In this document: positions 60,078 to 64,000 of the stretch, in pieces
Layout: every line of letters begins with the position of its first letter
Position numbering within the stretch: the first letter of the stretch is position 1
Source: Aquipluma nitroreducens
Lineage (GTDB): Bacteria; Bacteroidota; Bacteroidia; Bacteroidales; Prolixibacteraceae
Length of the DNA stretch: 64,000 nucleotides
Assembly: GCF_009689585.1 (NCBI RefSeq)
Contig: NZ_AP018694.1
Location: 3,897,501 to 3,961,500 of the forward strand
Direction: 5' to 3'
Translations under genes and position numbers: made by a program
Notes under the pieces: generated by a model
Database searches by the model: none
Told to the model about the DNA's origin: nothing
The model's input: the letters and a program-made list of their open reading frames with translations, nothing else

Positions 60078-60452
60078 ATGAAAATTCGTATTGTTTTGAT
60101 ATTTGCTGTTTTTTGTTTTTCATTTCGGCCGTCTGTCCAAAAGGCTGCTGCGGTATCTTCATCCAGTAATGGATTTTACATTACTGTTGATGACTTCACT
60201 GATCGTACAAAGCACAGTTATATCGTACAATCGAGAGATTCTGTTGATGTTATTTTTAAGCTCTTTTTTGAATCGGAACTTGAACTTGGTGATGTAAATC
60301 GCCCAATTGCTATTTTCAACGGAGAACATGATTTTTATGTAGCCCGGGTGAATGTCTTCCAAAAACCAAATGGTAAACTGAGTTTTCACCATCTGAAATA
60401 TCCCAAGATAAAGGTAACCAAACGTGCAAAACTAGCTCCAGTTACTTTATAA
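60078..60452 (+). CDS. Small secreted protein of unknown function
   Basis: A 124-residue product with a signal peptide (KIRIVLIFAVFCFSFRPSV) and a compact, probably beta-rich domain (GFYITVDDFTDRTKHSYIVQ, VDVIFKLFFESELELGDVNRPIAIFN, HDFYVARVNVFQ). The C-terminus is basic (KIKVTKRAKLA). No family recognised. Start at ATG 60078 chosen because it opens with the signal peptide. Confidence 0.6.
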   Translation: MKIRIVLIFAVFCFSFRPSVQKAAAVSSSSNGFYITVDDFTDRTKHSYIVQSRDSVDVIFKLFFESELELGDVNRPIAIFNGEHDFYVARVNVFQKPNGKLSFHHLKYPKIKVTKRAKLAPVTL

Positions 60453-60798
60453 TCCCTATTTTAGAAATTAGAATAGTATCTGAATAATCTTCGGTTTACA
60501 CAAAAGTATGTCGGGTTTTGCGTCTTACTGCGTTCGTCGCGTCCACAATTTGTCAAGGAGGGTATAGAACCCTGGTAACTTAAGAAGGGAGATGAAATGT
60601 AACTTTTTGACTAAATCTGTTCGGGATTTTTACAATTGCTAAACTTTCTTCTGAAAAGTGTGTTTATAAATTCTGAAAATCAAAACGATTTGTAAAAAAG
60701 AAGACAAATTAATCTTTTTATTAGTAATCCGAATAAAAAAGTCCGTTTTGTTTTCATTTTAAAAAATTAGTTCCATATTTGCATCAAATTATTCAGAA
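60453..60798. other. Region between the small secreted gene and the leu leader
   Basis: 346 bases with no gene. A short hairpin AGGGT-ATAGA-ACCCT lies near 60559-60573. The end carries the leu promoter elements (60747-60781). Confidence 0.5.
60747..60781 (+). promoter_or_regulatory. Promoter of the leu operon leader
   Basis: TTTG (60747-60750) lies 23 bases upstream of CATATTTG (60774-60781), a one-mismatch form of TAnnTTTG. The leader peptide ATG follows 17 bases later. Confidence 0.55.
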
Positions 60799-60870
60799 AT
60801 GACACGTTTTGCTAACATTTCCCTTCTAGGTCTCATTCTCGGTATTCTCCTAATTTGGATGCGCGATTGA
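60799..60870 (+). CDS. leuL: Leucine-rich leader peptide of the leu operon
   Basis: A 23-residue reading frame, MTRFANISLLGLILGILLIW then MRD and TGA. It has six leucines (codons 9, 10, 12, 14, 17, 18) and four isoleucines. All six Leu codons are CTN (CTT, CTA, CTC, CTC, CTC, CTA), while the proteins of this window mostly use TTG and CTG, so ribosomes should be sensitive to charged tRNA-Leu that reads CTN. The peptide has no other expected role. Its position just before a terminator and leuA makes it a classical attenuation peptide. It is too short for routine gene calling. Confidence 0.88.
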   Translation: MTRFANISLLGLILGILLIWMRD

Positions 60871-60938
60871 GAATGGTATGGGTAAAACTATAAAGAGCTT
60901 TCTAAAGGCCATTCTCAAAACAGGGGATGGCCTTTTTT
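60834..60938 (+). promoter_or_regulatory. Transcription attenuator of the leu operon
   Basis: Four segments can pair in mutually exclusive ways. Segment 1 CATTCTC (60834-60840, in the Leu codons) pairs with segment 2 GAGAATG (60869-60875, at the leader stop). Segment 2 GAGAATGG (60869-60876) pairs with segment 3 CCATTCTC (60909-60916). Segment 3, as AAAGGCCAT (60904-60912), pairs with segment 4 ATGGCCTTT (60927-60935), followed by T residues, which is the terminator. Stalling at Leu codons would free segment 2 for the 2:3 antiterminator. Finishing at the stop would cover segment 2 and let the terminator form. Confidence 0.88.
60904..60938 (+). terminator. Attenuator terminator hairpin
   Basis: Perfect 9-bp stem AAAGGCCAT/ATGGCCTTT with a 14-base loop and a T-run to 60938, upstream of leuA. 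Confidence 0.92.
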
Positions 60939-61010
60939 ATTACAGTTCAATAATATTAAGTGATCATGAATATACAAGGAAATAGATATTTAAACGCAAT
61001 TAATTTGACT

Positions 61011-61039
61011 CAAGCCCCCTCTCTATCGCTGGAGAGGGG
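61011..61039. repeat. CCCCTCTC/GAGAGGGG hairpin before leuA
   Basis: CCCCTCTC (61016-61023) and GAGAGGGG (61032-61039), preceded by CAAGC. A sister element, preceded by CAAGT, lies at 62721-62746 after leuA. Confidence 0.75.
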
Positions 61040-61113
61040 AAGCCTCCGGGCTGTTAGATGTCAGGAGAGTGTAGAAATAAATAGTATTGAAAAACGCATT
61101 AAAAGAAATAGTT

Positions 61114-62634
61114 ATGAGTGATAGATTGTACATTTTTGACACCACCTTACGCGACGGAGAGCAAGTTCCCGGGTGTCAGTTGAACACCGTTGAGAAAATT
61201 GAGGTTGCACGAGCTTTAGAGGAATTGGGCGTTGATGTGATAGAAGCCGGTTTCCCGATTTCGAGTCCTGGCGATTTTAATTCAGTAGTAGAAATATCAA
61301 AAGCGGTGACATGGCCAACTATTTGTGCGCTCACCCGCGCAGTCGAAAAAGACATTGATGTTGCTGCTGAAGCACTCAAATTTGCCAAGAAAGGTCGTAT
61401 TCACACCGGTATCGGAACTTCATTTTATCACATACATCACAAACTGAATTCCAATCAGGACGAAATTATTGAACGTGCCATTGCTGCTGTAAAATATGCC
61501 AAGCGCTACGTTGAAGATGTTGAATTTTATGCTGAAGATGCCGGTCGTACTGAGAACGAATACCTGGCTCGGGTGGTAGAAGCTGTTATTAAAGCGGGAG
61601 CAACGGTAGTGAATATTCCGGATACAACCGGATACACCATGCCGCACGAGTTTGGTGCTAAAATTAAATACCTGATCGATAATGTACCAAACGTTCACAA
61701 AGCAATTTTGTCGACACACTGCCACAACGATTTAGGAATGGCCACTGCCAATACAATCGCCGGAATCATGAACGGTGCCCGTCAGGCAGAGGTAACCATT
61801 AACGGAATTGGCGAACGTGCCGGAAATACTTCGTTGGAAGAAGTGGTCATGATTTTGAAAAGTCGCTATGCTATTTTGAACATCGATACCAACATCAATA
61901 CTAAAAATATTTACAAGACCAGCCGCATGGTTTCTAATATGATGAATATGCCTGTTCAACCCAATAAGGCAATTGTTGGTCGCAATGCTTTTGCACATTC
62001 CTCCGGAATTCATCAGGATGGTGTGTTGAAGAATCGCGAAAACTATGAAATTATGGATCCTGCCGATGTGGGTATCAATGAATCGAGCATTGTCTTAACT
62101 GCCCGCAGTGGTCGTGCTGCTTTAAGGCATCGTTTGGAAATCATGGGTTTTGAATTGGATAAAGAGAAATTGGATGAAGTTTATGAGCAATTTTTGAAAT
62201 TGGCTGATAAGAAAAAAGACGTGAAGGATGATGATGTGGCTGCTTTGTTGGGGGATGCAACTCAGAAAGAACGTCGCATTAAGCTTGATTTCTTACAGGT
62301 GGTTACAGGGAAAGGTCTGGTGCCAATAGCCAATGTGCGATTAGATATTTCCGGTGAAATACTTGATGCAACAGCTTCAGGAAACGGTCCGGTTGATGCA
62401 GCCTTGAAAGCTGTAAAGAAAATAATTCACCGAAAGGTTGTTTTGGAAGAATTCCTGATTCAGGCCATAACACATGGAAGCGACGATTTAGGTAAAGTGC
62501 ATATGCAGGTAAATCACGAAGGTGGAAATTACCATGGGTTTGGCGCCAACACAGATATCATTACGGCATCTGTTGAAGCTTTTCTGGATGCCATCAATAA
62601 AATTCCGGGCGGAGTAAGGGCTAAAAAAGAGTAA
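61114..62634 (+). CDS. leuA: 2-isopropylmalate synthase
   Basis: Condenses acetyl-CoA with 2-oxoisovalerate, the committed step to leucine. The 506-residue protein has the HMGL-like core with [26 protein letters not shown], the metal-binding [14 protein letters not shown], and [14 protein letters not shown]. The C-terminal regulatory domain (about 390-506), ending [11 protein letters not shown], usually binds leucine for feedback control. Start ATG 61114 (MSDRLYIFD) is chosen over an in-frame TTG at 61087. Transcription is likely gated by the upstream attenuator; leuC follows 136 bases later. Confidence 0.95.
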
Positions 62635-62770: not shown

Positions 62771-64000
62771 ATGGAAGCAAAAACTTTATTCGACAAAATT
62801 TGGGACTCGCATGTAGTGAAAGAGGTTGAAGGCGGCCCAAGTGTTTTATACATCGACCAGCATCTGATTCACGAAGTGACCAGCCCGGTTGCATTCCTTG
62901 GTCTGGAGAAACGTGGATTGAAAGTGCTTCGTCCGGAGAAAACCGTTGCGACTCCCGACCACAACGTGCCAACGATTAATCAGCACCTGAGCATTAAAGA
63001 CGAATTGTCGCGCAATCAGGTTGAAATGCTGAAGAAAAATTGTGCCACTCATGGCATTGTTTATCATGGACTTGGAAGTGAAGGGCACGGCGTGGTTCAC
63101 ATCATTGGTCCTGAAATGGGACTTACCCAACCGGGAATGACCATTGTTTGCGGCGACAGTCACACATCAACTCACGGCGCTTTTGGGACGATTGCTTTCG
63201 GAATTGGTACCAGCGAAGTGGAAATGGTGTTTGCCAGTCAGTGCATCATGCAACCGAAGCCGAAGAAAATGTTGATCTCGGTAAACGGCAAGCTGAACAA
63301 AGGCGTAACAGCAAAAGACATTGCTTTATATGTAATCTCACAGATTTCAACTTCAGGTGGAACAGGCCACTTTGTTGAATTTGCTGGTTCGGCTATCGAA
63401 AGTTTATCGATGGAAGGTCGTATGACACTTTGTAACATGAGCATCGAATGTGGTGCGCGTGGTGGTATGATTGCTCCTGACCAAACGACTTTCGACTATG
63501 TAAAAAGTCGCCAGTTTGCTCCAAAAGGCGAAGCCTGGGATAAAGCGCTGGCTTACTGGAAAACATTGAAATCGGATGCCGATGCAGTATTCGATTCGGT
63601 TTACGAATTTGACGCAGCCAACATTGAACCGATGATCACCTTCGGAACCAATCCGGGAATGGGAATCGGTATTTCGAAGAATGTTCCAACCAGCGATGGG
63701 TTAGTTGGGAATGATAAGCTGACTTACGAAAAGTCGTTGAAATATATGGGTTACAACCAAGGTGACAAAATGGTCGGCAAGCAAATCGACTATGTTTTTG
63801 TAGGGAGTTGTACCAATGGACGAATTGAAGATTTCAGGGCGTTTGCGAATGCTGTTAAGGGCAAGAAAAAGGCGGATAACGTAACTGCTTGGATTGTACC
63901 CGGATCGCATGCTGTCGAAAAGCAAATCATTGCAGAAGGATTGGTCGAAATTCTGGAAGCTGCCGGATTCGAACTTCGTCAGCCCGGCTGCTCTGCATGT
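62771..64000 (+). CDS. leuC: 3-isopropylmalate dehydratase large subunit (partial at window end)
   Basis: Frame open from ATG 62771 ([16 protein letters not shown]) to the window edge, 410 residues. Landmarks are VPTINQ near residue 60, [37 protein letters not shown], and the iron-sulfur ligands Cys347 in GSCTNGR and Cys407/Cys410 in PGCSAC, at the same residue numbers I recall for E. coli LeuC. The window ends exactly at Cys410; about 55 more residues are expected. With LeuD it isomerises 2- to 3-isopropylmalate. It follows leuA. Confidence 0.96.

Follow-up and report, generated by a model that had tools for sequence, protein, structure and literature searches.

The leu operon of Aquipluma nitroreducens

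The window analysed here, a 64,000-nucleotide stretch of the A. nitroreducens genome (5.7 Mb, single contig), carries at its end the first genes of a leucine operon on the forward strand. The first of them, leuA, encodes 2-isopropylmalate synthase and spans 61114-62634 (NF002086, 754.6 bits; TIGR00973, 701.7 bits; both over cut-off); leuC follows at 62771 and runs past the window end at 64000 (TIGR00170, 655.9 bits, over cut-off). The operon order is leuA-leuC-leuD-(citramalate-synthase-like)-methyltransferase-like-leuB. The best NCBIfam model for the citramalate-synthase-like gene is Leptospira CimA, whose 663 bits lie under the model's cut-off of 950, so that citramalate synthase is a lead and no firm call. 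Among named relatives the nearest, a Prolixibacteraceae MAG, has a LeuA that is 95% identical.

Upstream of leuA, after an open reading frame that ends at 60452, both the sequence and the list of open reading frames hold a leader frame at 60799-60870 (plus strand) of 23 codons, MTRFANISLLGLILGILLIWMRD, closed by the stop codon at 60868-60870. Just as the initial annotation had stated, six of its codons are CTN leucine codons, in the order CTT, CTA, CTC, CTC, CTC and CTA (60823, 60826, 60832, 60838, 60847 and 60850). Another four of the 23 encode isoleucine, every one ATT; three of these (60835, 60844 and 60853) fall with the leucine codons into a cluster at 60823-60855, regarded on sequence and codon bias as the control region, and the further one lies at 60817. 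Before the frame, at 60774-60781 on the same strand, stands the octamer CATATTTG, one mismatch away from TAnnTTTG, which we take to be the promoter -7 consensus.

Two mutually exclusive helices

A search for inverted repeats across 60780-61120, made without a seed, gave three pairs, and two of them are the helices of interest, both on the plus strand. The first, the putative antiterminator, joins 60867-60876 (TTGAGAATGG, segment 2, the 5' arm) to 60909-60918 (CCATTCTCAA, segment 3) with 10 of 10 base pairs perfect; its 5' arm overlaps the leader stop codon through GAGAATGG (60869-60876). The second is an intrinsic terminator at 60904-60938, before the first gene of the operon, with arms 60904-60916 and 60923-60935 and a T-run at 60933-60938; its core (60904-60912 with 60927-60935) pairs at 9 of 9 positions, and 13 pairs are formed counting wobbles. 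Both helices use 60909-60916 (CCATTCTC) and are therefore mutually exclusive. The computed energies are -19.6 kcal/mol for the terminator, -16.1 for the region of segments 2 and 3, and -14.2 for the region of segment 2 and segment 1 (CATTCTC, 60834-60840), which may pair with each other. The segment words of the initial annotation, the overlap of segment 2 with the stop and the T-run reaching 60938 could all be located in the sequence. A perfect 8-bp hairpin, CCCCTCTC/GAGAGGGG, present once in the window, lies at 61016-61039 between the terminator and leuA; the gap it occupies is similarly long in several close relatives and short in others, which suggests an inserted element.

A detector asking for a hairpin, a T-run and a frame rich in branched-chain codons recognised 109 of 185 real leuA upstream regions and 2 of 555 dinucleotide shuffles; on cysK upstream regions, taken as a natural control, it fired in 2 of 30.

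Conservation in the family and across the phylum

The family sample comprised 100 genomes; leuA was recovered at the chosen threshold in 94 of them, and 90 had at least 250 nt upstream of it; three loci with shorter upstream sequence (L093, L150, L174) and one with leuA at a contig end (G097) were left out. The detector placed a leader directly before leuA in 60 of the 90 loci, which under a 330-nt limit and with duplicates removed gave a family set of 55 leaders. A covariance model, R1, was built from 90 aligned leaders and run on the 30 detector-negative loci (31 handles, including the already positive G016). Of these 30, three carry the element directly at leuA, and 24 carry it 4.2-5.8 kb upstream (distances computed by hand from two tables) on leuA's own contig and strand, and there ilvD is the next gene. 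The element is thus found in 87 of the 90 leuA loci, 63 times directly before leuA and 24 times before an upstream ilvD; the genes between such an ilvD leader and leuA presumably form one operon. Two further loci (G040, G064), where the leuA contig is short, have the leader before ilvD on another contig, and G020 is the one family locus left without an assigned leader position.

A leader at leuA was accepted for 36 of 80 named relatives, and the labels of the passing records include Bacteroides, Phocaeicola, Prevotella, Barnesiella, Draconibacterium, Ancylomarina and Labilibaculum; in some of the non-passing relatives leuA follows what by eye is an apparent ilvC. R1 matched 91 of 247 genomes of the order at E <= 0.01 and 29 of 296 of the phylum at E <= 0.001, both counts being made under stricter filters that lose weak matches. 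Three implausible leaders (L027, L045, L071) were removed from the leuA leader counts and from the pairing tests, L027 being kept in the rule-based set for codons and shuffles.

Covariation and pairing tests

Aligning the leuA upstream regions of relatives, the check proposed with the initial annotation, bore it out in its main part: the leader, its leucine codons and segments 2, 3 and 4 are conserved, with covariation. The MAFFT alignment, A1, holds 90 of 92 distinct leaders; the long leaders L056 and L128 were omitted and L012 was begun at an inner ATG. In A1 the antiterminator is paired in 83.6% of cells against 35-46% in slid controls, and the terminator in 92.1% against 38-66%, comparisons in which the test structure is favoured over its slid versions because it was derived from the window and its relatives. 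Cells with double changes number 58 in the antiterminator (25.1 when shuffled), with 8 pairs showing such a change (4.8), and 55 in the terminator (13.2), with 10 changed pairs (4.1), all of these double-change counts being inflated by kinship among the sequences. Column 163, which belongs to both helices, changes with both of its partners, double changes being counted in 13 cells with column 94 and in 28 with column 192. Further pair types in the antiterminator are unremarkable (24 vs 22.4, and as high in 127 of 500 shuffles), and of its outer pairs, 81-171 fails to form in 44 sequences and 82-170 in 28; the latter pair is otherwise GC in 24, CG in 13, UA in 11, AU in 5, UG in 4 and GU in 2.

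In an alignment-free test against duplex shuffles, the 2:3 pairing reached p <= 0.05 for 54 of the 56 family leaders and for 24 of 36 others; this second set, of which 12 were missed, includes six records that carry the label Prolixibacteraceae or lie close to that family (L004-L008, L016). The same threshold was reached by the 1:2 pairing in 18 of 56 and 3 of 36. Segment 1 here consists mostly of two adjacent codons, ATT CTC for Ile-Leu; under permutation of synonymous codons 0/54 and 0/54 leaders reached p <= 0.05, and under codon draws from pooled usage 5/54 and 6/54, with p values of 0.20 and 0.065 for the window. Of the three alternative pairings that the initial annotation had proposed, 2:3 and 3:4 are conserved and covary, whereas the 1:2 protector hairpin is formable in the window and unconserved among leaders; as a conserved third competitor, segment 1 found little support in the duplex shuffles and the two synonymous-codon nulls, being weak in the family and unsupported outside it.

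A short motif, GTATG (60876-60880, plus strand), follows segment 2 and is mostly unpaired; T60877 and T60879 are at least 90% conserved in A1, and the motif is conserved beyond what pairing requires. Its generalised form GGT[AG]T[GA] occurs in 70 of 105 leuA, 12 of 40 ilvD and 12 of 30 cysK regions, against about 11, 4 and 3 expected. It is possible, as a guess, that GTATG is a pause site for RNA polymerase.

A probable ribosome-mediated attenuator

The arrangement at the leu locus is very probably a ribosome-mediated transcription attenuator of the leuA-to-leuB operon, a reading made from sequence and based on the frame, its codon content and bias, the two exclusive covarying helices, the conserved position and the codons matched to the downstream gene. 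The initial annotation, attenuation of a known type, is supported in its main point; translation of the leader, stalling, termination and the starvation response are what we infer from it. A ribosome would begin the leader frame close behind RNA polymerase. With leucyl- and isoleucyl-tRNA charged, it would reach the stop at 60868 and its footprint would hide segment 2, whereupon segments 3 and 4 would pair, the terminator would form and transcription would stop near 60938. Were charged tRNA for CTN leucine codons, and probably also for ATT isoleucine codons, scarce, the ribosome would stall at 60823-60855, leaving segment 2 free to pair with segment 3 while segment 4 is still to be transcribed; no terminator would then form and the operon would be transcribed.

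A ribosome covers about 13 nt past its A-site codon. On this footprint, one waiting at 60850 would cover the transcript to about 60863, leaving segment 2 free, and one at the stop would cover it to about 60881, hiding segment 2. In 42 of the 55 family leaders, 12-18 nt separate the last Leu or Ile codon from the stop. The other 13 have 6-9 nt there, a spacing at which a ribosome stalled on that codon would overlap part of segment 2 and which counts against the mechanism.

As for where transcription starts, [TC]AnnTTTG occurs in the 70 nt preceding the leader ATG in 96 of 139 leuA and ilvD leaders, against 6% of shuffles, and the stricter TAnnTTTG in 61 of the 139, against 4%. Such boxes mostly lie 25-36 nt before the ATG, so that the transcript probably begins about 10 bases before it. 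The hairpin could instead merely end an upstream transcript, the promoter of leuA being located after 60938, and the 148 nt from the T-run to the first leuA TTG start would leave room for one. Yet the T-run is just 20-65 nt from leuA in many relatives, the antiterminator is conserved, and a conserved -7-like box stands at the same distance before the leader in most box-bearing cases, all of which makes a separate leuA promoter very improbable.

Codon choice and the downstream gene

The family leaders are enriched in leucine and isoleucine codons, with valine added in a target-specific manner. Their leucine codons are mostly CTA, CTC and CTT in place of the common TTG and TTA: CTA, CTC, CTT and TTG make up fractions of 0.318, 0.294, 0.301 and 0.007 of the leucine codons in the family leaders, and of 0.044, 0.095, 0.200 and 0.272 in 41 open reading frames of the window. 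For CTA the enrichment has a Fisher p of 8e-39, with counts back-computed from the rounded fractions. This is the same preference as predicted for leu attenuation in Escherichia coli, where, in the accessible text of the modelling work, CUA is the best control codon and UUG and UUA are poor ones (PMC1183508).

Leaders before leuA (105 distinct peptides) hold on average 5.1 Leu, 5.0 Ile and 0.53 Val, and those before ilvD (38 distinct peptides) 4.4 Leu, 4.2 Ile and 3.21 Val. Two or more valines occur in 12 of the 105 and in 35 of the 38; the Mann-Whitney p for this difference in valine content, 8e-19, is optimistic, the sequences being related. The ilvD set was itself collected with the RNA model, which is why its 42/43 is no presence rate. 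The host genome has an ilvD leader of its own, MKNISIISLVIISVVVLLRAE, before an ilvD that scores over cut-off.

The citramalate route feeds isoleucine, which would explain the isoleucine codons in the leu leader. With leucine and isoleucine codons in the leader and a citramalate-synthase-like gene in the operon, both amino acids are probably sensed; the earlier description as a leucine attenuator holds for the leucine codons, which are conserved in relatives, and not for leucine as the sole signal.

The strong hydrophobicity of the peptide and its recurring Leu/Ile core would also suit a small hydrophobic membrane protein (LLGLILGILLIW) with the hairpin as its ordinary terminator. Such a protein would not call for a second, mutually exclusive helix that covaries, nor for the valines that come with a downstream ilvD, the cysteines before cysK, the tryptophans before trpE and the histidine run before the host genome's hisG; an enrichment in CTA is likewise unexpected in a well-expressed protein, and this explanation is very improbable. 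No more probable is that a metabolite riboswitch, a T-box or a protein-bound leader decides in place of the ribosome: the conservation of GTATG beyond pairing could mark a binding site and the gltB leaders (see below) retain the RNA without a codon run, but Rfam gave no match at gathering score over the 64-kb window and only three unrelated ones at E <= 10 over 60700-61130, the conserved structure is confined to the alternative hairpins, and codon identity tracks the pathway.

Related leaders before other genes

The leu leader, read as an attenuator, has counterparts elsewhere. Outside the host genome, the R1 search of the phylum returned 28 loci, which lie before leuA (L287, L288), ilvD (L292, L295, L299, L304, L307, L312), the branched-chain transaminase gene ilvE (L289, L294, L296, L298, L300, L301), the threonine ammonia-lyase gene ilvA (L305, L306, L310), an aspartokinase gene, probably bifunctional thrA (L290, L293), and trpE (L302, L303, L313). 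By eye, two loci with Ile-rich tandem leaders precede an ACT-like gene (L291, L297) and one with the cysteine codons SCTCCS precedes a carbonic-anhydrase-like gene (L311); at three (L308, L309, L314) neither the leader nor the gene fits, and these were taken as false. NCBIfam was run on one locus per kind except leuA, the other assignments being made by tblastn or by eye; L294, L295, L302 and L305 scored over a cut-off, L290 over an aspartokinase subfamily cut-off, and L291 and L311 had no match at 1e-20. Tandem branched-chain leaders, each with its own terminator, were also observed before ilvD (L199, L209, L211, L212), an acetolactate synthase gene (L208) and ilvE (L210).

In the host genome, a WWW leader (L315) precedes trpE and an HHH leader (L321), located from hisG itself, precedes hisG. 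An R1 match upstream of murI (L179) resembles a plain intergenic terminator and was not counted. The detector found no leader at the four aspartokinase genes of the host (L322-L325), one of which (L325) has, by eye, a Met-rich short frame without a clear terminator.

R1 also matched a host locus (L181/L257, 4646641-4646789, minus strand) before cysK, a gene that scores over its family cut-off. Here and among further cysK upstream regions (L258-L286), a leader with a cysteine run, e.g. MKANFSYMYMCCCYKRSGEGMFSTNI, is accompanied by an intrinsic terminator; under a strict rule (a CC run, at least three Cys and a terminator) 24 of 30 family cysK upstream regions qualify against 1 of 185 at leuA. 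Taken one by one, the cysK leaders show weak 2:3 pairing: 4 of 26 reach p <= 0.05 and the median p is 0.13, which a short helix may explain. The case for these leaders as candidate cysteine attenuators in Bacteroidota is made by codons and terminator more than by the 2:3 test. As far as the accessible texts go, cys leaders of Actinobacteria come without obvious terminators (PMC1262725) and those of mycobacteria are described as translation attenuation (PMC13236596). Another host leader matched by R1 (L180, 20995-21121, minus strand) has Met-Cys repeats, MCMCMCMCF, and stands before a DUF2061-like gene (by eye), a gene with a CysG N-terminal domain and a CysJ-like gene.

For gltB, the glutamate synthase gene, 52 upstream regions were collected, from 50 of 60 genomes with gltB plus two others. 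By raw count 13 of the 52 have a segment-2-like word, and 12 of the 13 also a leader frame and a terminator (L316-L320, L332, L336, L351, L358, L362, L364, L370); in one family the combination occurs in 5 of 5. The gltB leader peptides are conserved within clades (KHLYK-like; GLTEYL) and lack a run of any single amino acid.

Taken together, and read tentatively as one set, these loci may represent a single attenuator RNA module (a leader frame, a TGAGAAnGGTATG-like segment 2, a C-rich shared arm and a T-run) copied before many amino-acid operons of Bacteroidota and retargeted by codon exchange, to Leu/Ile at leuA, Val/Ile/Leu at ilvD and ilvE, Ile at ilvA, Thr/Ile at aspartokinase, Trp at trpE and runs of Cys at cysK. 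Within the same reading, the module before gltB may sense something else, for instance via an arrest peptide.

Relation to known attenuators

In enteric leuL, a leader frame with leucine codons lies before the leu genes, together with a terminator and an antiterminator that share one arm. The Aquipluma element resembles it in its CUN leucine codons, CUA among them as in the accessible text on E. coli (PMC1183508), in its arm-sharing helices and in the leu genes downstream. It differs in having isoleucine codons too, in its unconserved 1:2 pairing, in an operon with a citramalate-synthase-like gene and in a leader that shifts to ilvD in longer operons. Nor does it match Rfam: the Leu_leader (presumably RF00512), Bacteroid-trp (RF01692) and T-box models gave no match to the leu element, and its membership in these families was rejected.

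Within the phylum, Vitreschak et al. in 2004 reportedly predicted attenuators of branched-chain amino acid genes in Bacteroidetes/Chlorobi, which would be the same phylum and pathway. Partial texts give, for Flavobacterium psychrophilum, clues to leader-peptide attenuation ahead of amino-acid operons (PMC9723704) and describe short frames in long 5' UTRs in Bacteroides thetaiotaomicron (PMC7366714); both are cases from the same phylum of 5' short frames likened to attenuation leaders, and in the portions available neither account names a leu element or sequence. The Bacteroid-trp RNA is, in the available text, a curated Bacteroidetes RNA that is probably cis-regulatory (PMC2864571); its sole match in the host genome (30.7 bits, E 0.4, under the gathering score of 49) led to the WWW leader before trpE. 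In another phylum, a leucine-rich attenuator peptide is mentioned for the ilv-leu genes of Staphylococcus aureus (PMC5794164, in part), a likeness by description alone in a leucine-rich leader of branched-chain genes. A 2010 survey, in its accessible part, knew leader-peptide systems only from Proteobacteria and Actinobacteria (PMC2965389). The accessible open-licence literature on attenuation and leader peptides yielded general hints, and neither the leu element nor a Bacteroidota cysK or gltB attenuator was found in it; the shared retargeted module, the cysteine leaders and the gltB leaders could be new.

To sum up, the leu leader offers a concrete, testable attenuator in Bacteroidota. The enteric codon preference, repeated in a distant phylum, provides an independent case for the selective-charging theory, and the RNA model of the leu leader leads on to leaders before genes for cysteine, threonine, tryptophan and glutamate. 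Since records of Bacteroides, Phocaeicola and Prevotella (L060, L025, L017, L073, L050) have leaders too, these would bear on how gut bacteria control the synthesis of branched-chain amino acids.
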